Source: Chelativorans salis | GTDB lineage: Bacteria; Pseudomonadota; Alphaproteobacteria; Rhizobiales; Rhizobiaceae | Assembly (NCBI RefSeq): GCF_025336525.1 | Contig: NZ_JAOCZP010000015.1 | Span: 1-64,000, forward strand | Length of the DNA: 64,000 nt | Direction: 5' to 3' | Shown: positions 25,378-37,040 of the stretch, in pieces | Numbering within the stretch: the first letter of the stretch is position 1 | Layout of the letters: every line of letters starts with the position of its first letter | Program-made: the position numbers and the translations under genes | Notes under the pieces: generated by a model | The model's database searches: none | What the model was told of the DNA's origin: nothing | What the model saw: only the letters and a program-made list of their open reading frames with translations

Positions 25378-26988
25378 CTATTCGGCCGCCTGCCGGGCGA
25401 GCGGAGAGGCGTTCAACACATCCGCATCGACATGGGGTTCGAATTTCTCAAAGTTGTCGATGAACATGCCGACCAGGCGCCTGGCCTGGTCGTCATAGGC
25501 CGCCTTGTCGCTCCAGGTGGTGCGCGGGTCTAGGATGGCGCTGTCTACGCCTGGCACGGCCACCGGAACGGCAAAGCCGAAGGTCGCATCGGTGCGGAAC
25601 TCAGCCTCGCCGAGCGAGCCGTCGAGTGCCGCGGCAAGCAGTGTCCGCGTGACCTGGATGGGCATGCGCTTGCCCGTACCGTAGGCGCCGCCCGTCCAGC
25701 CGGTGTTCACCAGCCAGCAGTCGACGCCGTGCTCGGCGATCAGGTCGCGCAGGAGGTTGCCATAGGCCGAAGGATGGCGCGGCATGAACGGTGCTCCGAA
25801 GCAGGTGGAGAACGTGGCCTCCGGCTCCTTCACGCCTTTTTCCGTGCCCGCCACCTTGGCCGTGTAGCCGGACAGGAAGTGATACATCGCCTGCGCCGGC
25901 GTCAGCCGCGCAATCGGCGGCATGACGCCGAAGGCATCGGCCGTCAGCATGATGACGTTCTTCGGCTGTCCGGCGCGCCCCGTGCCGCTCGCGTTGGGGA
26001 TGAAGTGCAGCGGATAGGCGGCGCGCGCGTTCTCTGTCAGGCTGTCGTCGTCGAAGTCCGGCACGCGGGCCTCGTCAAGCACGACATTCTCCAGCACCGT
26101 GCCGAAGCGCCTTGTGGTGGAAAAGATTTCCGGCTCGGCCTCTGCCGACAGGCGGATCGTCTTGGCGTAGCACCCGCCCTCGAAGTTGAAGATGCCCTCT
26201 CGCCCCCAGCCGTGCTCGTCGTCGCCGATCAAGGTGCGCGCTGAATCGGCTGAAAGGGTGGTCTTGCCCGTGCCGGACAGGCCGAAGAAGACGGCGACAT
26301 CGCCTTCCGGCCCCATATTGGCCGAGCAGTGCATCGGCATGACGCCGCGCGGCGGCAGGATGTGATTGAGGGCGGTGAAGACCGACTTCTTCATCTCACC
26401 GGCGTAGGAAGTGCCGCCGATGAGAACGATCATGCGGCTGAGGTCCATGGCGATGACGGTTTCGCCACGGCAGCCGTGCCGGGCGGGGTCGGCGTGGAAG
26501 GAAGGAAGATCAATCACCGTCATCTTCGGCACGAAGCGCGAGAGCGCATCATGTGCCGGGCGGATGAGCAGGTTGCGGATGAACAGCGAATGCCAGGCAT
26601 ATTCGGTGACGACGCGCGTCGGCAGCGCGTTCTCGGGGTCCGCGCCGCCAACCAGATCCTGCACGAAGAGGTCGCAGCCGTCTGCGTGCCGCCGGAAATC
26701 CTCGTGGAGCGTTTCGAACTGCGCGCGCGAGATGGCGCCGTTGTTGTCCCACCAGACGGCATCTTCCGTGTCGGCATCGCGGACGATGAACTTGTCCTTC
26801 GGAGAGCGGCCCGTGTGCTGACCGGTCTTGGCCACGAGTGCGCCATGGGCCGAAAGCCTGGCTTCGCCGCGGCGGATTGCTTCCTCGTAGAGACGTGCCT
26901 CGGGAAGGTTGTAATGGACGGTGCCTGTCGTCTTCAGGCTGCTGGTTTCGATCCCGCTCGCGGGATTGCGGTGGCCGGTTTCGTGCAT
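25378..26988 (-). CDS. pckA: Phosphoenolpyruvate carboxykinase (ATP)
   Basis: A 536-residue gluconeogenic enzyme that converts oxaloacetate and ATP to phosphoenolpyruvate. The kinase-1a P-loop is [20 protein letters not shown], the metal and substrate segments are [14 protein letters not shown] and [21 protein letters not shown], and the adenine region includes [16 protein letters not shown]. Length is normal for the ATP-dependent enzyme. In rhizobia pckA is adjacent to and divergent from chvI and is under ChvI influence, and the same arrangement is present here. The shared intergenic region carries inverted repeats. Confidence 0.97.
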
Positions 26989-27339
26989 GTTTCGCTACCA
27001 AATCTGTTTTGATCGAAGGGCCGGCCAGCAAAACGGGGCGGAGAGCCCTTGTCAGCAGCCACGGATCGTCAGAAACAGAAAAATTCAGCAATATCAAATC
27101 ATTAATCGATTTAAGCATTTTTAGAACGAGTTAAATCGGTTATATGTTCCTTGAACTCCGGCAGAGAGCCCCCAGCTTTCGCCGAAGCCCTGCGGCGGCG
27201 GCGCGTGAAACCGTCGCACGGCAGGCGCGTAAAGTGACTCCGCCCGGAGAATGTGCCACATTTTGTACCCAATTTGTCCTGCAACTGCGCGCGGATGCAG
27301 CTGGAAGGGACACATTGCATGATGAGGGAGCCGCAGGAC
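26989..27339. promoter_or_regulatory. Divergent pckA/chvI control region
   Basis: A 351-base gene-free stretch, AT-rich in its middle compared with the rest of the window. It contains CGATTTAA (27107-27114) and TTAAATCG (27131-27138) as an 8-bp inverted repeat with a 16-base gap; the left copy is itself embedded in a near-palindrome TTAATCGATTTAA (27102-27114). These are plausible operator sites for ChvI or another regulator, but I cannot match them to a known motif. A clear -35/-10 pair is not evident on either strand. Confidence 0.4.
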
Positions 27340-28041
27340 ATGGCAACGATCGCGCTCGTTGATGACGACCGCAACATTCTCACGTCCGTCTCGATCGCGC
27401 TGGAATCGGAGGGCTACCGCGTCGAGACCTACACGGATGGCGCCTCGGCGCTGGAAGGTCTGAGCGCGCGTCCGCCGTCGCTCGCCATCCTCGACATCAA
27501 GATGCCGCGCATGGATGGCATGGAGCTTCTGCGCCGCCTACGCCAGAAGAGCGATGTGCCGGTGATCTTCCTGACCTCGAAGGACGACGAGATCGATGAG
27601 TTGTTCGGCCTCAAGATGGGCGCCGACGATTTCGTCCGAAAACCCTTCTCGCAGCGGCTCCTGGTCGAGCGGGTGCGGGCGGTGCTGCGCCGGGCGAGCG
27701 CCCGCGAGGCCGCCGCCAAAGCGCCCGACAAGCAGAGCCGCTCGCTGGAGCGCGGCCATCTCGTCATGGACCAGGAGCGCCACACCTGCACCTGGAAAGG
27801 CGAGCCGGTGACGCTGACGGTAACCGAGTTCCTCATCCTGCATTCGCTGGCGCAGCGTCCAGGTGTTGTAAAAAGCCGTGACGCGCTGATGGATTCGGCC
27901 TATGACGAGCAGGTCTATGTGGACGACCGAACCATCGACAGCCACATCAAGCGGCTGCGCAAGAAGTTCAAGTCGGTCGACGGCGAGTTTGACATGATCG
28001 AGACGCTCTACGGCGTCGGCTACCGCTTCCGCGAGGCGTGA
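27340..28041 (+). CDS. chvI: Response regulator ChvI (OmpR family)
   Basis: A 233-residue OmpR/PhoB-type regulator of the ChvG-ChvI (BvrSR) acid and envelope stress system needed for host interaction in rhizobia and Brucella. The receiver has the acidic pocket LVDDDRN, phosphoacceptor Asp52 in [11 protein letters not shown], Thr in FLTSKDDE and Lys in RKPFSQR. The winged helix ends [15 protein letters not shown] chose ATG 27340 because it places the Asp at position 52, as in known ChvI, and has GAGGGAG 9 bases before it. Earlier in-frame starts at 27319/27322 are possible. chvG follows. Confidence 0.96.
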
Positions 28042-28058
28042 CGGGCGACAATTACTGA

Positions 28059-29837
28059 ATGGCCATAGAGGCAGAAAACAGGAGAACCGGCGCAACGCAG
28101 GGCAGGGTGGAACGGACAACTCCCTGGCTGCTGGGTCGGCTCGCGGTGCCGGTCCGCCGCATGCTGGGCCACTACATGTTCTCCAGCCTCACGCGACGTA
28201 TTCTCATCCTCAATTTCGGTGCCATGACGGTGCTCGTCATCGGCATTTTGTACATCAACCAGTTCCGCGACGCGCTCATCGACGCCCAGATCGAGAGCCT
28301 CAGAACCCAGGGCGGCATCATCGCCGGCGCCATCGCCGCGTCCGCCACGGTGGAGACGGATTCGATCCTAATCGATCCGGAGAAGCTTCTGGAGCTTCAG
28401 GCAGGCGAAAGCATGTCGCCGCGGCCCGACCGATTTGAGAGCCTTGATTTCCCGATCAACCCGGAACTCGTCGCGCCGCTTCTCCCGCGGCTGATATCGC
28501 CCGACAAGACCCGCGCGCGTATCTACGACCGTGATGCCAACCTGCTGCTCGATTCGCGCCATCTTTATTCGCGCGGCCAGATCCTGCGCTACGACCTGCC
28601 GGCGATGGACGAGGAGGAGGAAGGCCTTCTCGACTGGTTCCAGAAGCGTCTTGCAGCGATCTTCCAGGACGGCGATCTGCCTCTCGACCGCGAGCAGCCT
28701 GGCGGCAGCGGTGTCGCCTACGAGGAGGTGATGGCTGCCTTGACGGGCGGAGAGCCGAAAGCGTTCGTGCGCCGTAGCGAGACGGGTGAGCGTATCATTT
28801 CGGTGGCGGTGCCCATTCAGCGCTTCCGTGCCGTCGTCGGCGTTCTCCAGCTTTCGACCCAGGGAGATGTCGATCGCATCATCGCCGAGGAGCGGCTGGC
28901 GATCCTGCGCGTCTTCGGCGTCGCCGCTCTCGTGACGGCGGTGCTGTCGCTGCTCTTGGCCTCCACCATCGCCAATCCACTGCGCCGCCTTTCCGCCGCC
29001 GCCATCCGCGTGCGCCGGGGTGTCCGCAACCGCGAGGAAATACCGGATTTCTCGCACCGCCAGGACGAGATCGGCAATCTTTCGGTAGCGCTGCGCGACA
29101 TGACCAAGGCACTTTACGCCCGCCTCGACGCCATCGAGAGCTTCGCCGCCGATGTGGCGCACGAGCTCAAGAACCCGCTCACCTCGCTCGGCAGTGCCGT
29201 GGAGACGCTGCCGCTGGCCAAGGACCAGAACTCGCGTGACCGGCTGATGGAGATCATCCAGCACGACGTGCGCCGGCTCGACCGGCTGATCACCGATATC
29301 TCCGATGCGTCGCGCTTGGATGCGGAGATGGTGCGCGAAGACGCCGAGCCGGTCGATCTCCAGCGCTTCGTCGGCGATCTCGTTGCCGGCATCCGCGATG
29401 CCGGCGGCCGGCAAAAGCCTGTGAACCTCCAGTTCAAGGTCGAAGGCAAGCCGGGCCAGCGCTTTGTCGTGCCGGGCCATGATCTGCGTCTTGGCCAGGT
29501 CATCACCAACCTGATCGAGAACGCGCGGTCCTTCGTGCCCGAGGAGGAGGGGCGCATCACGCTTACGCTGTCGCGCAGCGGCCGCCGCATCGTGTTGACC
29601 GTGGACGACAACGGCCCCGGCATCCGCGCCGACGACATCGAGCGCATCTTCGATCGCTTCTATACGGATCGTCCTTCGAGCGAGGCCTTCGGACAGAATT
29701 CCGGTCTCGGCCTGTCCATCAGCCGTCAGATCATCGAGGCCCACGGCGGCACGCTAAGCGCCGAGAACATCCCCGGCACCAAGCCCGGCGAGATACGCGG
29801 CGCCCGCTTCGTCATTACGCTGCCGGCCGAGAGCTGA
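28059..29837 (+). CDS. chvG: Sensor histidine kinase ChvG
   Basis: A 592-residue membrane kinase that phosphorylates ChvI. Residues about 47-68 form the first membrane segment (LILNFGAMTVLVIGILYI), followed by a periplasmic domain of about 220 residues that in relatives is inhibited by the repressor ExoR. A second membrane segment lies near residue 285-305, then HAMP. The H-box is FAADVAHELKNPLTSLGS with His368, and the ATPase has the N-box VITNLIENARSFVP, DDNGPGI and GLGLSISRQIIEAHGG. It is 17 bases downstream of chvI and 3 bases from hprK, implying one operon. Confidence 0.96.
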   Translation: MAIEAENRRTGATQGRVERTTPWLLGRLAVPVRRMLGHYMFSSLTRRILILNFGAMTVLVIGILYINQFRDALIDAQIESLRTQGGIIAGAIAASATVETDSILIDPEKLLELQAGESMSPRPDRFESLDFPINPELVAPLLPRLISPDKTRARIYDRDANLLLDSRHLYSRGQILRYDLPAMDEEEEGLLDWFQKRLAAIFQDGDLPLDREQPGGSGVAYEEVMAALTGGEPKAFVRRSETGERIISVAVPIQRFRAVVGVLQLSTQGDVDRIIAEERLAILRVFGVAALVTAVLSLLLASTIANPLRRLSAAAIRVRRGVRNREEIPDFSHRQDEIGNLSVALRDMTKALYARLDAIESFAADVAHELKNPLTSLGSAVETLPLAKDQNSRDRLMEIIQHDVRRLDRLITDISDASRLDAEMVREDAEPVDLQRFVGDLVAGIRDAGGRQKPVNLQFKVEGKPGQRFVVPGHDLRLGQVITNLIENARSFVPEEEGRITLTLSRSGRRIVLTVDDNGPGIRADDIERIFDRFYTDRPSSEAFGQNSGLGLSISRQIIEAHGGTLSAENIPGTKPGEIRGARFVITLPAES

Positions 29838-29840
29838 CCA

Positions 29841-30287
29841 ATGGCTCCGGCCAACCGCCACGGCAGCCTGGTTATCGCCGGCGAAAGCGGCGTCCTCGTC
29901 ACCGGCCCATCCGGCTCCGGAAAGACCAGGCTGGCGTTGGCGCTCATGGCCCATTGTGCCGCCCATGGGCGCTTCTCCAGGCTGGTCGCGGATGATCAGG
30001 TGTTTCTCTCCGTCGCGGCAGGGCGTGTGATTGGCCATGCGCCGGAGACGATCGGCGGTTTGGTGGAGGCGCGCGGTTTCGGCCCCGCCCGCACGGCGCA
30101 CGAGCCACGCGCGGTCATCGATCTGGTGGTGCAGCTGGTGGCGGCCAAGGAAGCCCCGCGCGTTCATGGGGAAGAACAGGTGTCACTCCAAGGCATCGTG
30201 CTGCCATGCCTGGAGCTTGCCGAGCGCGATGTCGAAGGTGCTGTTTTCGCTATCGCGGCGCGCCTTTCCTTGTCACCGTTCGGCTGA
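29841..30287 (+). CDS. hprK: HPr kinase/phosphorylase, short alphaproteobacterial form
   Basis: A 148-residue version of HprK that contains only the catalytic half. The P-loop GPSGSGKTRLALAL (Lys28) is near the N-terminus, and RLVADDQVFL follows with the acidic residues. The HPrK signature ETIGGLVEARGFGPA appears in shortened form. The N-terminal domain of Firmicute HprK is absent, as is normal in Rhizobiales. It would phosphorylate HPr on serine (Ser57 of the HPr below) and tie PTS state to ChvG/ChvI. It starts 3 bases after chvG. Confidence 0.92.
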   Translation: MAPANRHGSLVIAGESGVLVTGPSGSGKTRLALALMAHCAAHGRFSRLVADDQVFLSVAAGRVIGHAPETIGGLVEARGFGPARTAHEPRAVIDLVVQLVAAKEAPRVHGEEQVSLQGIVLPCLELAERDVEGAVFAIAARLSLSPFG

Positions 30288-30556: not shown

Positions 30557-30958
30557 ATGATCGGCATCGTCCTTGTCACGCATGGCCGGCTTGCGGAGGA
30601 GTTCCGCCATGCGGTTGAACATGTCGTCGGCCCTCAGGAAAATCTCGAAACCGTCTCCATCGGCGCCGAGGACGACATGGAGCAGCGCCGCCGTGATATC
30701 GTCGACGCCGTGAGCCGCGCCGACACTGGCGCCGGCGTCATCATCCTCACCGACATGTTCGGCGGTACGCCATCGAACCTCGCTATCTCGGTCATGGATG
30801 CCGGCCGCGTCGAGGTCGTCGCGGGCATGAACCTGCCGATGCTCATCAAGCTGTCCAGCGTGCGCGCCGGCAATGACATGGCACTGGCGCTCGAGGAAGC
30901 GCAGACGGCCGGTCGCAAATACATCAACGTGGCGAGCCAGGTGCTCAACGGCAAATGA
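30557..30958 (+). CDS. PTS system mannose-type EIIA component
   Basis: A 133-residue EIIA of the mannose family. The phosphorylated His9 is in IGIVLVTHGRLAEEF, and LTDMFGGTPSNLA is the conserved second motif. No EIIB, EIIC or EIID gene is nearby, so in alphaproteobacteria this protein acts in a regulatory phosphoryl chain with HPr and HprK instead of sugar uptake. GGCGGGGG serves as Shine-Dalgarno. Its stop overlaps the HPr start by four bases (ATGA), so the pair is coupled. Confidence 0.94.
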   Translation: MIGIVLVTHGRLAEEFRHAVEHVVGPQENLETVSIGAEDDMEQRRRDIVDAVSRADTGAGVIILTDMFGGTPSNLAISVMDAGRVEVVAGMNLPMLIKLSSVRAGNDMALALEEAQTAGRKYINVASQVLNGK

Positions 30959-31257
30959 GCATTGCACCGACCAAACCCACCGACGATGGCCTCACGCGCG
31001 ACTTCGCCATCGTCAATCAGCGGGGCCTGCACGCTCGCGCCTCGGCAAAGTTCGTCCAGCTTGTCGGCAGCTACGATGCCGAGGTGATCGTGGAGAAGGA
31101 TGGCATCGCCGTCGGCGGTACCTCGATCATGGGTTTGATGATGCTGGCTGCCACGCCGGGCTGCTGCATAAAAGTGAGCGCGCGCGGTCCCGAGGCGACC
31201 GCCGTCATGCATGCCTTGGGTGAATTGATCGCCAGCCGCTTCGGGGAGGGGAGCTAG
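30955..31257 (+). CDS. ptsH: Phosphocarrier protein HPr
   Basis: A 100-residue HPr-family protein with a ten-residue N-terminal extension. The EI-dependent site is His26 in [16 protein letters not shown]. The regulatory serine is Ser57 in [16 protein letters not shown], the target of HprK. It is the relay between EI-Ntr and EIIA proteins; EIIA-Ntr (ptsN) is at 52 kb in this window, while the enzyme I gene is not here. A 7-bp hairpin starts at the base after its stop. Confidence 0.95.
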
Positions 31258-31275
31258 GTCACACCATTGTGTGAC
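31258..31275 (+). repeat. 7-bp hairpin between ptsH and ahcY
   Basis: GTCACAC (31258-31264) pairs with GTGTGAC (31269-31275) around CATT, beginning directly after the ptsH stop codon. There is no T-tract, so it may be an operator-like palindrome or RNA-stabilising stem. The rest of the 142-base gap is AT-rich and could hold an ahcY promoter, but no clear one was found. Confidence 0.5.
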
Positions 31276-31399
31276 ATGCACACATATAGATTTCTTTATA
31301 TACCATTGTCGCCCGCCGCACGATCTGTTAATCAGGTCCGAAACCTGCGTCCGTTGTTTTCCGCGGCGTGAAGATCGTTTCAAGCTGGAGCTGAAGCCT

Positions 31400-32797
31400 A
31401 TGGCAGCCACCGATTATATCGTTGCCGATATCTCCCTTGCCCCGTGGGGTCGCAAGGAGATCGAGATCGCCGAGACAGAAATGCCCGGCCTGATGGCCTG
31501 CCGCGAGGAATTCGGCGACAAGCAGCCGCTGAAAGGCGCCCGCATCACCGGCTCGCTCCACATGACCATCCAGACGGCGGTCCTCATCGAGACGCTGAAG
31601 GCGCTGGGGGCTGAGGTCCGCTGGGCCTCCTGCAACATCTTCTCTACACAGGACCATGCGGCTGCCGCCATCGCCGAGTCCGGCACGCCGGTCTTTGCCG
31701 TCAAGGGCGAGACGCTGGAGGACTACTGGACCTATACCGACCGCATCTTCCAGTGGCCGGACGGCGAGCCTTCCAACATGATCCTCGATGATGGCGGCGA
31801 CGCCACCATGTACATCCTTCTCGGCGCCCGCGCCGAGGCCGGAGAGGACGTCTTGTCCAATCCAGGCAACGAGGAGGAGGAAATCCTCTTCGCGCAGATC
31901 AAGAAGCGGATGGCAGAACCCCCCGGCTTCTTCACACGCCAGCGGGACGCCATTCGCGGTGTAACGGAGGAGACGACCACCGGCGTCAACCGGCTCTACC
32001 AGTTGCAGAAGAAGGGGCTCCTGCCCTTCCCAGCCATCAACGTGAACGATTCCGTCACCAAGTCGAAATTCGACAACAAGTACGGCTGCAAGGAATCGCT
32101 GGTCGACGGCATCCGCCGCGCCACCGACGTGATGATGGCCGGCAAGGTGGCCGTCGTCTGCGGCTATGGCGACGTCGGCAAGGGTTGCGCCCAGTCGCTG
32201 ATCGGTGCCGGCGCCCGCGTCAAGGTCACGGAGGCCGACCCCATCTGTGCCCTGCAGGCGGCGATGGACGGCTTCGAGGTGGTGACGCTGGAGGAGGCCA
32301 TTCCCACCGCCGACATCATCATCACAGCCACCGGCAACAAGGATGTCATCTCTCTGGACCAGATGCGCCAGATGAAAGATATGACGATCCTCGGCAACAT
32401 CGGCCATTTCGACAACGAGATTCAGGTCTCCGCCCTCCGCAACTTCAAATGGACCAACATTAAACCGCAGGTCGACATGATCGAGTTTCCCGACGGGAAG
32501 CGCATTATCCTGCTGTCGGAAGGCCGTCTGCTCAACCTCGGCAACGCCACCGGCCATCCCAGCTTCGTCATGTCTGCCTCCTTCACCAATCAGGTGCTGG
32601 CGCAGATCGAGCTGTGGGTGCGGCCAGGCCAGTACGAGAACCAGGTTTATGTGCTGCCCAAGCATCTGGATGAGAAGGTGGCGCGCCTGCATCTCGGCAA
32701 GCTGGGCGCCAAACTGACCGAGCTTTCACCCGAGCAGGCCGCCTATATCGGTGTCAGTCCCCAAGGTCCTTTCAAGCCAGACCACTACAGATACTGA
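31400..32797 (+). CDS. ahcY: S-adenosylhomocysteine hydrolase
   Basis: A 465-residue NAD-dependent enzyme that splits S-adenosylhomocysteine into adenosine and homocysteine and so removes the product inhibitor of methyltransferases. The start is [21 protein letters not shown], substrate-domain pieces include [21 protein letters not shown], the NAD fold is [16 protein letters not shown], and the conserved C-terminus ends FKPDHYRY. Length is standard for alphas. A farther in-frame start at 31271 was rejected because ATG 31400 opens the family N-terminus with GGAG upstream. A strong terminator follows. Confidence 0.97.
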
Positions 32798-32827
32798 TCG
32801 TTTCTAAGAATAACACAATATATTGCG

Positions 32828-32863
32828 TGCCGGGCTCTGGACTCAGAGCCCGGCATTATTTTT
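32828..32863 (+). terminator. Rho-independent terminator after ahcY
   Basis: A perfect stem, GCCGGGCTCTG (32829-32839) with CAGAGCCCGGC (32844-32854), extended by a T-A pair, with a 4-base loop and a following ATTATTTTT. It separates ahcY from divL. Confidence 0.9.
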
Positions 32864-32990
32864 GTCGCCCTTCCTTCTTCACCCGGATTCGCTCACCGGG
32901 TACAGTGCACTGATTCGAGGGGCGCCGATGTGTCTGCGTTCGGCGCGGATCGGTCGGTCTTGAAGATCATGCGGCGGAGAGGAACAAGGC

Positions 32991-35522
32991 ATGCCGGGGC
33001 AGGACCCGCTTTGCGGCGGGGCTTCTGGGCCTCTGGCCCGTAGGAAAGGATGTGGCTGCGGGATGGGGCTGTTCGCACGCGTGTCGCTGCCGGTTCTTGC
33101 CTATACGGCAATGACGGGGAGCGGAGCAGCGGCGGAGCAGACGATCAATCTGCCGTTGGGCAGCATGTCGGTCGACACGCTCCAGGTCATCCAGCTTTCC
33201 ATCTTTGCCGGCGTTATGGGGGCGGCGCTTCTCTCGGCCATCTGGCTTATTCGCCAGCGCGCCCGCATCTCCGCCGAGAATGCCGAGCTCAGGACACGGG
33301 TCGGCGAGCTTTCCGGTGCGCTGTCGCGCTCCGAAGCCCTTCTCAACCTGAAGGATCAGCGGGTCGTCGTCTGGCCGGGGGATGGTGGCCGCCCCTCCGT
33401 CGCCGGGGAATTGCCGGGCGAAACCGGCGCCCCGCGCGAGCGCAGCACGTTTCTCGCCTTCGGCCGCTGGCTCATGCCGAAATCAGCCTCCGCGCTCGAC
33501 CGCGCTGCGGAGGCCCTGCGTGAAAAGGGGACCGGTTTCGATCTCGTGGCCGAGACTCGCGCCGGCGTGCTTATCGAAGTGCAGGGACGCAAGTCCGCCC
33601 TCCACGCAGTCATCCGTTTCTCCTCGCTCTCCGCGGCGCAGGCCGAGCACGCCAGGCTGAAGCTCAAGCACGAGCGCCTGCACGCCGACCACGAGAACAT
33701 TCTCGGCCTTGTCAACGCGCTCAACATGCCCTTCTGGCTGCGCGACGAGGCGGGAAAGTTGAAGTGGGTCAACGCCGCCTATGCGCGGTCGGTCGAGGCC
33801 GAGGGAGCGGATGCGGCGGTGCGCGAGGGACACGAGCTCTTGCCGACACCGGCCCGCGCGACGCTCATTCAGCACCACCAGCAGGAGCCGGTGTTCAGAG
33901 AGGCACTCTCCACCGTGGTCGGCGGCGACCGGCGCCTGTTCATGGTCACCGACGTCGCCGGCCGCAACGGCAGTGCCGGCCTTGCCCTCGACACCAGCGA
34001 GCTTGACGGGCTGCGCCGCGAATACGAGAGCACTGTGCAGAGCCACGCCGACACGCTGGACCAACTCACCACGGCGGTCGCCATTTTCGACGCCGAGCAG
34101 AAGCTGAAGTTCCACAACCAGGCTTTCCAGAAATTGTGGGGCCTCGATGCCGCCTTCCTCGACGGCGGGCCGGAGAACGCGCTCCTGCTCGATCGCCTGC
34201 GCAGCGAAGGCAAGCTGGCCGAGCAGCCGGAATGGCGGCGCTGGAAGGAGCAGCTTCTTTCGGCCTATCGGGCAGTGGAACCGCAAGAGCACTGGTGGCA
34301 TCTGCCCGACGGCCGCACGATCCGCGTCATTGCCAATCCGCAGCCTAAGGGTGGCGTCACCTGGGTGTTCGAGAACCTGACGGAAAAGATCGACCTGGAA
34401 AGCCGCTACAACGCCGCCGTCCAGGTGCAGAGCGAGACGCTGGACAATCTGGCCGAAGGGGTTGCGGTCTTCGGGGCGGACGGCCGTCTGCGCCTGTCGA
34501 ACCCTGCCTTCCGCACCCTTTGGGGCATCCCTAAGGAATTGATAGAAAGCGACACCCATATCTCGGTTCTCAAGGCGGCCTGCGATGCGGTGGCCAGGCA
34601 GAGCCCGTGGGATACCTTCGTCGCCGCGGCGACCGGCTTCGACGACGAGCGGCGCGACAGCAATGGTCGCATCGAGCTGACCACCGGCACCATCCTCCAC
34701 TATGCCATCGTCCATCTGCCCAACGGCCAGGTGATGATGACCTTCGTCGACGTGACCGACAGTGTGAACGTTGAGCGTGCGCTGAAGGAGAAGAACGAGG
34801 CGCTGGAAAAGGCTGACAAGCTGAAGAACGATTTCGTGCAGCACGTTTCCTACGAGCTGCGTTCGCCGCTTACCAATATCATCGGCTTCACCGAACTCCT
34901 GGCTCTGGAGACGACAGGACCGCTCAGTCAGCGCCAGCGTGAATATGTCGACCATATCGGGTCGTCGTCATCGCTGCTTCTCACCGTCGTCAACGACATC
35001 CTCGATCTCGCCACGGTAGACGCCGGTATCATGGAGCTGGAGATCGGCGAGGTGGAAATCCGCCCGACCGTGAAGGCGGCTGCGGATCTCGTTGCCGAGC
35101 GCCTGCGCGAGCACGACATCACCCTGAATGTGGACGTGGACGAGGCACCGATCGCCTTCCACGCCGACGAGAACCGCATCCGCCAGATTCTCTACAACCT
35201 GTTGAGCAACGCCGCGAACTACGCGCCCGAGAAGGGCAAGATCACCTTGACCGCGCGGCAGAGCGGCAATGGCGTGGAATTCCGCGTCCATGATGACGGC
35301 CCGGGCATATCGCCGGAGGTGCTCGCCACCATCTTCCGGCGCTTCGAGCCGAGCAGCAAGGGCGGGCGCCGGCGCGGCGCCGGCCTCGGGCTCTCCATCG
35401 TCAAGAGCTTCGTCGAGCTGCATGGCGGCGAGGTAGAGATCGATACCGGCAAGGGCCGCGGCACGGCGGTCATCTGCCGTTTTCCCCGGGCGCCTTCAGG
35501 CGTGCGCGCCGCGGCGGAATAA
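32991..35522 (+). CDS. divL: DivL-type PAS sensor kinase homologue with Tyr in place of the phospho-His
   Basis: An 843-residue membrane protein. N-terminal hydrophobic segments occur near residues 27-48 and 62-88, followed by several PAS-like repeats (about residues 240-590, including LWGLDAAFLDGG and LWGIPKELIE). The H-box reads FVQHVSYELRSPLTNIIGF: where kinases have SHELRTP, residue 621 is Tyr. That substitution defines DivL, a non-canonical kinase that controls CckA and hence CtrA in the cell cycle. The ATPase is intact: NLLSNAANYAPEKG, DDGPGIS, GAGLGLSIVKSFVELHGG. GAGAGGAAC precedes ATG 32991; ATG 33063 is an alternative. Confidence 0.88.
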   Translation: MPGQDPLCGGASGPLARRKGCGCGMGLFARVSLPVLAYTAMTGSGAAAEQTINLPLGSMSVDTLQVIQLSIFAGVMGAALLSAIWLIRQRARISAENAELRTRVGELSGALSRSEALLNLKDQRVVVWPGDGGRPSVAGELPGETGAPRERSTFLAFGRWLMPKSASALDRAAEALREKGTGFDLVAETRAGVLIEVQGRKSALHAVIRFSSLSAAQAEHARLKLKHERLHADHENILGLVNALNMPFWLRDEAGKLKWVNAAYARSVEAEGADAAVREGHELLPTPARATLIQHHQQEPVFREALSTVVGGDRRLFMVTDVAGRNGSAGLALDTSELDGLRREYESTVQSHADTLDQLTTAVAIFDAEQKLKFHNQAFQKLWGLDAAFLDGGPENALLLDRLRSEGKLAEQPEWRRWKEQLLSAYRAVEPQEHWWHLPDGRTIRVIANPQPKGGVTWVFENLTEKIDLESRYNAAVQVQSETLDNLAEGVAVFGADGRLRLSNPAFRTLWGIPKELIESDTHISVLKAACDAVARQSPWDTFVAAATGFDDERRDSNGRIELTTGTILHYAIVHLPNGQVMMTFVDVTDSVNVERALKEKNEALEKADKLKNDFVQHVSYELRSPLTNIIGFTELLALETTGPLSQRQREYVDHIGSSSSLLLTVVNDILDLATVDAGIMELEIGEVEIRPTVKAAADLVAERLREHDITLNVDVDEAPIAFHADENRIRQILYNLLSNAANYAPEKGKITLTARQSGNGVEFRVHDDGPGISPEVLATIFRRFEPSSKGGRRRGAGLGLSIVKSFVELHGGEVEIDTGKGRGTAVICRFPRAPSGVRAAAE

Positions 35523-35531
35523 ACGGCCTTT

Positions 35532-37040
35532 ATGACGGCGCCCAAGCCCCTCGCACGTTTTCTGCCGGACGAGCAGGCGACAAACCGTCTGGGCGAAGAT
35601 CTGGCGATCGCTCTCAGGCCCGGCGATGTGGTGGCCCTTCACGGCGACCTCGGCACGGGCAAGACAACGCTCGCCCGCGCCATCATCCGCGCGCTTGCCG
35701 ACGATCCCACCCTCGACGTGCCGAGCCCCACTTTCACACTCGCGCAAACCTATGCCCTGCGCATCCCCGCCCATCATTTCGACCTCTACCGCCTCTCCGG
35801 CGCAGAGGAGCTGGAGGAATTGGGGCTAGCCGAGGCCATCGTAGAGGGCATAGCATTTGTGGAATGGCCCGAGCGCGCGCTCGACGCCTTCAAGACCGCC
35901 ATCCGTGTCACGCTGCGCGAGCGCGGCGAGGGGCGTGAGGTCGAGATCGCCGCGCCCGACGAAGCCCACGCGCGCATCGCCCGCTCCTTGGCAATACGGG
36001 AATTCCTCGATGCCTCCGGCCATGCCGGCGCGAAGCGGACCTTCCTGCTTGGCGACGCCTCCGTGCGCGCCTACGAGACGATCACCACCACGCACGGAGA
36101 GCGGCTCATCCTCATGGATGCGCCTGAGCGGCACGACGAGCCGATCGTCCACGACGGCCTGCCCTATAGCCGCATCGCCCGTCTCGCCCAGTCGGTGGCG
36201 GCCTTTGTCGGTGTAGCGAAGGGCCTGCGCGCCGCCGGCTTCGCCGCGCCGCACATCCACGCGCTGGACCTCGATCGAGGCCTGCTCCTGATCGAGCATC
36301 TGGGCGAAGAACATTTCGTCGCCACCGGCGGCGCGCCGATCCCCGAGCGGTATCTGGCGGCCGCCCGTCTGCTTGCGGCGCTGCACGAGCGCACGTGGCC
36401 CGACCATTTCCCGGTGGCCGAGGGTATCGACTACTCTCCGCCGCCCTACGACCGCGCCGCGCTCGGCATCGAGACCGAGCTTCTGCTCGACTGGTATCTG
36501 CCTCATGTGAAGGGGCGTGCGGCGAACCAGGCGGAGCGGCAGGTCTTCGGCCGTCTATGGGCGGCGCTGTTTGCGCGTCTCGAGGCGAGCGAGCAAAGCC
36601 TGGTGCTGCGTGACTTTCACTCGCCCAACATCATCTGGCGTGAGGAGGAGAGGGGCTTGGCGCGTCTCGGCCTCGTCGACGTGCAAGACGCCGTCTTCGG
36701 CCCCGGCGCCTATGACCTCGCCTCGCTCGCGCTCGATGCGCGGGCGGACATCCCCGAGGCACTGGAGCGCGCGGTGGTGGATGCTTATTGCGACGCCCGC
36801 CGCGCCCCAAGCTTCGACCGCACCGCCTTCGAGGAGGCCTACGCCATCACCGCCGCGCAGCGGAACACAAAGCTGCTCGGCATCTTCGTGCGGCTTGCCC
36901 GGCGCGACGGCAAGCCCGGCTATCTGCACCACCTGCCGCGCATTCGCGCCTATCTAAGAAGGGTACTCGCCCATCCCGCGCTGGAAGAGCTGCGGGCCTT
37001 CTACGGCGAGCACGGTTTTCTGGAGGACGAGGCGGGATGA
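35532..37040 (+). CDS. tsaE: TsaE ATPase fused to aminoglycoside-phosphotransferase-like domain
   Basis: A 502-residue two-domain fusion. Residues about 1-145 are TsaE, the ATPase of the complex that makes threonylcarbamoyl-adenosine (t6A37) in tRNA; its P-loop is HGDLGTGKTTLARAII, followed by VPSPTFTLAQTY and HFDLYRL. Residues about 170-490 are an APH/choline-kinase-like domain with the catalytic loop VLRDFHSPNIIW and the metal motif LVDVQDAVFGPGAYDLAS. In other bacteria the kinase is separate and related to the AmgK cell-wall sugar kinase, which is a suggestion only. The fusion is common in Rhizobiales. The stop overlaps the next start. Confidence 0.92.
   Translation: MTAPKPLARFLPDEQATNRLGEDLAIALRPGDVVALHGDLGTGKTTLARAIIRALADDPTLDVPSPTFTLAQTYALRIPAHHFDLYRLSGAEELEELGLAEAIVEGIAFVEWPERALDAFKTAIRVTLRERGEGREVEIAAPDEAHARIARSLAIREFLDASGHAGAKRTFLLGDASVRAYETITTTHGERLILMDAPERHDEPIVHDGLPYSRIARLAQSVAAFVGVAKGLRAAGFAAPHIHALDLDRGLLLIEHLGEEHFVATGGAPIPERYLAAARLLAALHERTWPDHFPVAEGIDYSPPPYDRAALGIETELLLDWYLPHVKGRAANQAERQVFGRLWAALFARLEASEQSLVLRDFHSPNIIWREEERGLARLGLVDVQDAVFGPGAYDLASLALDARADIPEALERAVVDAYCDARRAPSFDRTAFEEAYAITAAQRNTKLLGIFVRLARRDGKPGYLHHLPRIRAYLRRVLAHPALEELRAFYGEHGFLEDEAG

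Follow-up and report, generated by a model that had tools for sequence, protein, structure and literature searches.

DivL of Caulobacter crescentus is described as a tyrosine pseudokinase that senses phosphorylated DivK (DivK~P), which it binds to control CckA (PMC4211667). The same source gives the tyrosine as conserved throughout alphaproteobacterial DivL proteins, except in Magnetospirillum, which has alanine, and short DivL proteins that lack the kinase part are reported for Rhodobacterales and for genomes without DivK (PMC9430884, PMC2877005). The Agrobacterium homologue is Atu0027 (PMC3577659). Alleles of Sinorhizobium meliloti divL act as suppressors of a cbrA mutant, and the temperature-sensitive ones suggest essentiality (PMC11500502). 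Here we describe the sequence, orthology, domain layout, pathway partners and conserved neighbourhood of a divL gene from Chelativorans salis, which encodes a pseudo-histidine kinase of 843 residues at positions 32991-35522 (plus strand, like all features below unless stated) of a 64,000-nucleotide window, the whole stretch of DNA that was analysed (contig NZ_JAOCZP010000015.1, positions 1 to 64,000). Taken together, the open reading frame (ORF), orthology, structure match and tree lead to a joint reading, to which we assign a probability of about 0.94: the protein is the DivL orthologue of a Chelativorans/Nitratireductor-like rhizobium, a membrane-anchored pseudokinase probably expressed at least partly from its own GANTC-bearing promoter.

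The phospho-acceptor position of this protein is occupied by tyrosine. The equivalent of the H-box reads VSYELRSPLT (residues 619-628, 34845-34874), in which the TAC codon at 34851-34853 encodes Tyr621; codon and alignment column both agree with what a preliminary description of this DNA had read here. Among 61 genomes searched, all 60 that carry DivL have tyrosine at the acceptor column. The C. salis genome has 19 paralogue loci; local alignment reaches the H-box in 17 of them, each with histidine at this place, and leaves it uncovered in L019 and L020. A sequencing error that turned CAC into TAC is refuted by the independent genomes and is practically out of the question, because the two closest relatives (G001 and G003, separate genomes, 93-94% identical) and, with them, all 59 of 59 other orthologue loci have tyrosine at the same place. 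Tyrosine also stands in 80 of 80 named loci, a biased set that cannot test the residue because one of the two peptide scan patterns begins with tyrosine. These named loci, the 80 that score best among 582 matches and hence close relatives, come from Nitratireductor, Chelativorans, Mesorhizobium, the Brucella group, Rhizobium, Sinorhizobium and others. The start codon at 32991 is backed by most same-genus relatives, which align from residue 1, and an alternative in-frame ATG lies at 33063.

The identification as a DivL homologue, already made in the preliminary description, is borne out by the structure match, the tree, the synteny and the presence of the pathway. The best match among solved structures is Caulobacter DivL (4Q20, 148.4 bits, 2e-42), and the next is a different kinase (108.6 bits, 2.3e-30). 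In the set of 61 genomes (C. salis and 60 relatives; 46 genera, 25 families), a DivL match at the threshold of 1e-70 or better is found in 60, as a single match in 59 of them. Among the best 80 of 582 loci, the nearest named relatives are Chelativorans and Nitratireductor luteus, at 78-79% identity, in agreement with a position of the organism close to these genera. In one genome of 2.0 megabases (Mb; G020), the DivL match is split into two pieces of one gene with the H-box present (G020:C37:108834-110906, L078). A reduced 1.1-Mb genome of the same family (G021) is the sole one of the 61 without a DivL match at 1e-70.

A quick maximum-likelihood tree was calculated from 100 kinase cores with the tyrosine column left out. 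Every third of 114 class-level tyrosine rows was taken into it, together with 21 rows from Rhizobiales and 13 of the 19 C. salis paralogue loci. The tree splits 87 DivL rows, the window protein among them, from the 13 ordinary kinases of the same genome with a support of 99 in the Shimodaira-Hasegawa-like approximate likelihood-ratio test (SH-aLRT), and the window protein falls within a Rhizobiales clade with a support of 98. Clustering with ordinary histidine kinases, named beforehand as the outcome that would count against DivL, is thus the opposite of what the tree gives. The protein might instead be an ordinary PAS sensor histidine kinase, unrelated to DivL, whose histidine was lost recently. 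Its intact CA boxes would fit such an origin, as would the NCBIfam search, in which the best 25 of 80 matches contain no DivL model and the names given belong to generic kinases that score below cut-off, in keeping with the expectation in the preliminary description that such a gene would readily pass for a generic sensor kinase. Against this stand the tyrosine in each of the 60 orthologues from the protein search, the conserved synteny, the best PDB match to DivL and the separation from the 13 ordinary kinases in the tree. Recent loss of histidine is refuted by the orthologue column, the synteny and the tree, and we regard it as extremely improbable.

The domain layout is that of DivL, with a membrane helix read by eye, several PAS domains, a DHp domain and a CA domain. 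A probable single membrane helix spans approximately residues 65-87 (33183-33251) and lies within a model helix of residues 63-118. It is followed by two PAS-like domains, of which the first (residues 123-212, 33357-33626) is placed by the strand and helix order of the model and is not found by Pfam, and the second (residues 248-334, 33732-33992) is placed by the model together with a Pfam PAS match below cut-off at residues 240-292. The third and fourth PAS domains (residues 362-462, 34074-34376; residues 490-587, 34458-34751) are seen both in the model and by Pfam, as PAS_7 at 356-468 and PAS_4 at 484-590. The DHp (HisKA) domain occupies residues 612-679 (34824-35027; PF00512, 63.2 bits) and the CA (HATPase_c) domain residues 726-834 (35166-35492; PF02518, 100.7 bits). 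Pfam matches over cut-off are PAS_7 in two stretches, PAS_8, PAS_4, HisKA and HATPase_c. The AlphaFold model, calculated from a 27-row alignment, has a long helix at the N terminus and, after it, four PAS-like domains and the DHp and CA domains. Its mean predicted local distance difference test score (pLDDT) is 79.9, and its predicted template modelling score (pTM) is 0.34, which leaves the placement of the domains relative to each other unsure.

The ATP site is intact, in agreement with the preliminary description of the N, G1 and G2 boxes: N740, D768/G770/G772 and G796/G798/G800 are all present and nearly invariant in 27 aligned DivL proteins. Caulobacter DivL keeps the asparagine, the aspartate and the glycines at the same places in the 4Q20 alignment. 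Such conservation is what would be expected if the protein still used ATP or phosphorylated on tyrosine, and 99 of 144 class-level rows (see below) retain all seven ATP-site letters checked. An early report on Caulobacter is also said to have proposed tyrosine kinase activity for DivL. On the other side, Caulobacter DivL has no autokinase activity and binds trinitrophenyl-ATP (TNP-ATP) weakly, at 57 uM (PMC4211667), and continued ATP use or tyrosine phosphorylation appears very unlikely to us. The intact boxes were considered as a sign of activity and set aside, since Caulobacter DivL has them too and binds TNP-ATP weakly, so that their presence is no diagnostic sign of ATP use. The Caulobacter residues R553, T557 and A601, which dock DivK, correspond to R624, T628 and A674 when counted along the alignment.

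The acceptor residue was compared across the class in a sample of 289 genomes including C. salis, in which 156 have a DivL-profile match at 1e-80. Among the matches listed, and with the C. salis protein left out, 149 loci were compared, five of them without a residue at the H-box column. The remaining 144 DivL-like proteins have tyrosine in 117 cases and another residue in 27: histidine in seven, threonine in four, phenylalanine and glutamine in three each, valine and glycine in two each, and cysteine, serine, arginine, lysine, leucine and glutamate in one each. The description of this tyrosine as the defining feature of DivL is therefore almost true without holding strictly, since it fits 117 of the 144 rows and not the other 27. 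Phenylalanine is found in L200 and L216, two of the three same-order genomes of the class sample (all three of family code f26), so the tyrosine is not strictly fixed even within the order. The histidine-bearing proteins (L218, L277, L279, L295, L293, L315 and L317) score 542-763 bits against the DivL profile, compared with at most 258 bits for the 18 other kinase loci of the C. salis genome that were scored, and the tree places their rows on the DivL side. The histidine label needs five changes in the tree as drawn; a single origin is possible, because the starred branches force only one. Four of these proteins (L218 and, from one genus code, L277, L279 and L295) keep all seven ATP-site letters checked. 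Judged by their residues, the histidine-bearing DivL-like proteins, four of them with an intact checked ATP site, are candidate active kinases. The survey shows that DivL-like proteins do not all have tyrosine, and the handful with histidine offers a clean way to test for kinase activity in a DivL.

The partners of DivL are encoded in the same genome. CckA (NF046020, 1133.7 bits, cut-off 1000), ChpT (PF10090), CtrA (423.3 bits, cut-off 350), PleD (NF007135, 680.6 against a cut-off of 474) and GcrA (PF07750, 201.4 bits, over cut-off) are all found. A DivK-like single-domain regulator adjoins PleD and is named by its sequence and place, with no NCBIfam model at 1e-60; PdhS-like and DivJ-like kinase matches are present below their cut-offs. 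By analogy with work on Caulobacter and Sinorhizobium, we infer that the protein senses DivK~P, controls CckA and is essential. The DHp domain would dimerise and dock the response regulator DivK~P, and the protein would not autophosphorylate, because Tyr621 stands in place of the histidine. Free DivL would favour the kinase state of CckA and, through ChpT, the formation of CtrA~P, and DivK~P bound to DivL would switch this state off. The gene itself would be transcribed at least partly from its own GANTC-bearing promoter of the GcrA/CcrM type, located behind a terminator that follows ahcY.

The latter proposal comes from the gap between ahcY and divL, which was compared in 109 loci: the window, the 80 named loci and, from L021-L049, the 28 of 29 loci that have ahcY. 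All belong to the window's own family by code or to its best-scoring named relatives, and because the loci are related and some genomes are present twice, as in L024 and L080, the counts are not independent. A terminator-like hairpin of 13 pairs with a T-rich tail lies at 32827-32856, within an element annotated at 32827-32866, as indicated by a terminator scan and by conservation, and a hairpin of this kind is found in 86 of the 109 loci, usually about 27 nucleotides past the ahcY stop, a raw count without shuffle control. Downstream of it, a conserved promoter-like block, CTTC...GATTC...TACAGT...GATTC (32877-32916), contains two GANTC sites, the target of CcrM. The block CTTC...GANTC...TAnnnT...GANTC occurs in 89 of the 109 loci and nowhere in the rest of the loci (3.78 million letters, both strands); this count is no independent test, because the motif was written after viewing the loci. 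Fairer controls are the shuffle count and the DNA upstream of six other genes. At least two GANTC sites lie within 180 nucleotides past the ahcY stop in 98 of 109 loci, compared with 19% of dinucleotide shuffles, and the mean number of sites is 2.06 compared with 0.81. In the 200 nucleotides upstream of the six other genes, at least two sites are seen in 1-6 of 70-80 loci, and in the 200 nucleotides before the divL match start in 39 of 80, a figure that reflects the varying distance to the match start.

The extended motif YGAKTCK is described as the GcrA motif (PMC7987155), and one of the two GANTC sites of the window fits it. The downstream site (32912-32916) is present in 105 of 109 loci and matches YGAKTCK, at one fixed position, in 100 of these 109, against a background of 17% of the GANTC sites on the strand read in the 80 named loci; in the window, the flanks of the upstream site (32886-32890) do not fit. 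In Caulobacter and Brevundimonas, divL belongs to the GcrA regulon, and a class-wide survey with one species per order finds GcrA regulation of divL likely in no more than a few of 13 species (PMC7987155). GANTC sites upstream of cell-cycle genes have also been counted, with no conclusion drawn on methylation control (PMC2877005). No description of the GANTC pair before rhizobial divL was found in the open literature searched. In close relatives, divL probably has its own promoter of the GcrA/CcrM type, and the conserved DNA between ahcY and divL argues for separate control of a cell-cycle type. For Rhizobiaceae and close families, it is fairly likely that the terminator insulates divL from the ChvG/ChvI-PTS-ahcY block (PTS, phosphotransferase system) and that a promoter of its own with two conserved CcrM sites drives the gene. 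If so, passage of the replication fork together with GcrA, rather than envelope stress, would time DivL synthesis, and GcrA control of divL would extend from Caulobacterales to Rhizobiales.

The hairpin region shows further features. Its stem varies between loci. TTGAC is found in the hairpin in 56 of 62 strict terminators, compared with 7 of 90 elsewhere (80 loci, L080-L159), and the window has TGGAC instead. TTGAC of the hairpin loop was considered as a promoter -35 element and rejected, as no fitting -10 element lies at the right distance in the loci viewed by eye. A word that resembles a DnaA box, one mismatch away from TTATNCACA, occurs in the first 48 nucleotides past ahcY in 24 of 80 loci, compared with 0.5% of random windows, mostly in the Rhizobium group as judged by eye (L080-L159). 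Rfam gives no element in the gap; its three matches all lie elsewhere, far below gathering scores.

The genes around divL are arranged as the preliminary description stated. In the window, pckA (25378-26988, minus strand; PF01293) is followed by a response regulator (listed ORF 27253-28041; Response_reg and Trans_reg_C), which we take to be chvI from its position, its matches indicating an OmpR-type response regulator only. Then come the sensor kinase chvG (28059-29837; NF058527, 474.3 bits, below the cut-off of 740), the short HPr kinase hprK (29841-30287; PF07475), the PTS enzyme IIA (EIIA) of the mannose family (30557-30958; PF03610), HPr (30955-31257; PF00381), ahcY (listed ORF 31271-32797, with the true start probably further in; TIGR00936), divL and tsaE (35532-37040). 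The tsaE ORF, of 502 residues, joins a TsaE domain (TIGR00150, residues 11-141, over cut-off) and an AmgK-like N-acetylmuramate sugar kinase domain (NF045698, residues 156-494, below cut-off). The full order from the opposite-strand pckA to tsaE is found in 66 of the 80 named loci, and ahcY, divL and tsaE stand together in 80 of 80. chvI is detected in 75 and chvG in 76 of the 80, some of the remainder being cut by contig ends. In L120, a locus uncut by a contig end, the chv-PTS block is inverted, and in the uncut loci L109 and L115 a scan of the available flank finds no chv genes.

This order bears on a shared regulation of divL with ChvG/ChvI in a single operon, in which envelope stress would directly set the DivL level. 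The conserved order in 66 of 80 loci fits such an operon. In Brucella abortus, divL lies in the 16-gene bvrR/bvrS operon, whose genes are co-transcribed by reverse transcription PCR (RT-PCR) and whose synteny is noted in other alphaproteobacteria (PMC9491525). Against one operon stand the hairpin after ahcY (86 of 109 loci), the GANTC block (89 of 109), the inversion in L120, the chv genes not found in the available flanks of L109 and L115, and the general ability of RT-PCR to pick up weak read-through as well; direct setting of the DivL level by envelope stress is rather doubtful. The earlier proposal that the location links stress signalling with the cell cycle is thus supported only in part, by the conserved order and the Brucella co-transcription, and is weakened by the DNA between ahcY and divL and by these three loci. 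Adjacency on its own is no proof of a regulatory link. A link from stress to the cell cycle through read-through is possible, as the Brucella RT-PCR suggests.

Several points weigh against a DivL orthologue with its own promoter. The tree node that joins the window clade to 4Q20 has a support of 88-90, under the star level, and 47 of the 97 inner branches of this quick tree are open. The DivL profile fails to separate the 4Q20 fragment from L002, the best paralogue of the C. salis genome and a longer protein, because the former scores 255 bits and the latter 258. Two divL homologues are reported in many Rhizobiales (PMC8116508); a second one is not seen at 1e-70 in the 61 genomes, the two pieces in G020 being a split gene. 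The Caulobacter contacts Y562, H579 and D595 are F633, Y652 and N668 here, as read from the 4Q20 alignment, and DivK docking may therefore differ in detail. The Brucella RT-PCR, with co-transcription from the chv genes to divL (PMC9491525), speaks against a fully separate divL unit. A terminator scan of 13 kilobases gives 6 sites where shuffles lead one to expect 8.0, so that only length and conservation speak for the hairpin. An E. coli-type promoter scan gives no match near divL or at the proposed promoter, and the upstream GANTC site, present in 97 loci, fits YGAKTCK in only 37 of the 97. In addition, among 30 loci of more distant relatives (L050-L079), only 4 have the full block within 700 nucleotides upstream, which restricts the promoter claim to close relatives.

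As a protein, the C. salis DivL is one more member of a well-studied family. Both the tyrosine pseudokinase (PMC4211667) and the neighbourhood (PMC9491525) are published, so the finding is known biology in a normal rhizobial copy. The fresh point appears to be the DNA upstream, where divL seems to have its own promoter linked to DNA methylation and not simply to ride on its stress-response neighbours. The useful part is this correction: the gene order suggests a link between stress and the cell cycle, and the ahcY-divL DNA suggests separate control of a cell-cycle type.

The protein resembles Caulobacter crescentus DivL (4Q20; PMC4211667) in its acceptor tyrosine, its PAS-DHp-CA layout and the docking residues R, T and A, and differs from it at the three contact positions F633, Y652 and N668. 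Like S. meliloti DivL, which acts with CckA downstream of the DivK kinase CbrA, it is rhizobial; two PAS domains are predicted for the S. meliloti protein (PMC11500502), whereas the window model has four PAS-like folds. The gene order matches that of Brucella divL (BAW_12015) in the bvrR/bvrS operon, with opposite-strand pckA, the regulator pair, hprK, EIIA, HPr, ahcY, divL and tsaE. The genes past tsaE differ: in Brucella these are a guanylyltransferase gene, addB, addA and trx (PMC9491525), and in the window an ORF of 382 residues that matches an epimerase below cut-off and a gene for a murein endopeptidase. Finally, the extended motif YGAKTCK before divL is shared with GcrA/CcrM-dependent promoters. 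In contrast to the published survey, which gives GcrA control of divL as likely in few species (PMC7987155), the motif stands at a fixed place in 100 of the 109 loci, all from the window's family or its best-scoring relatives.

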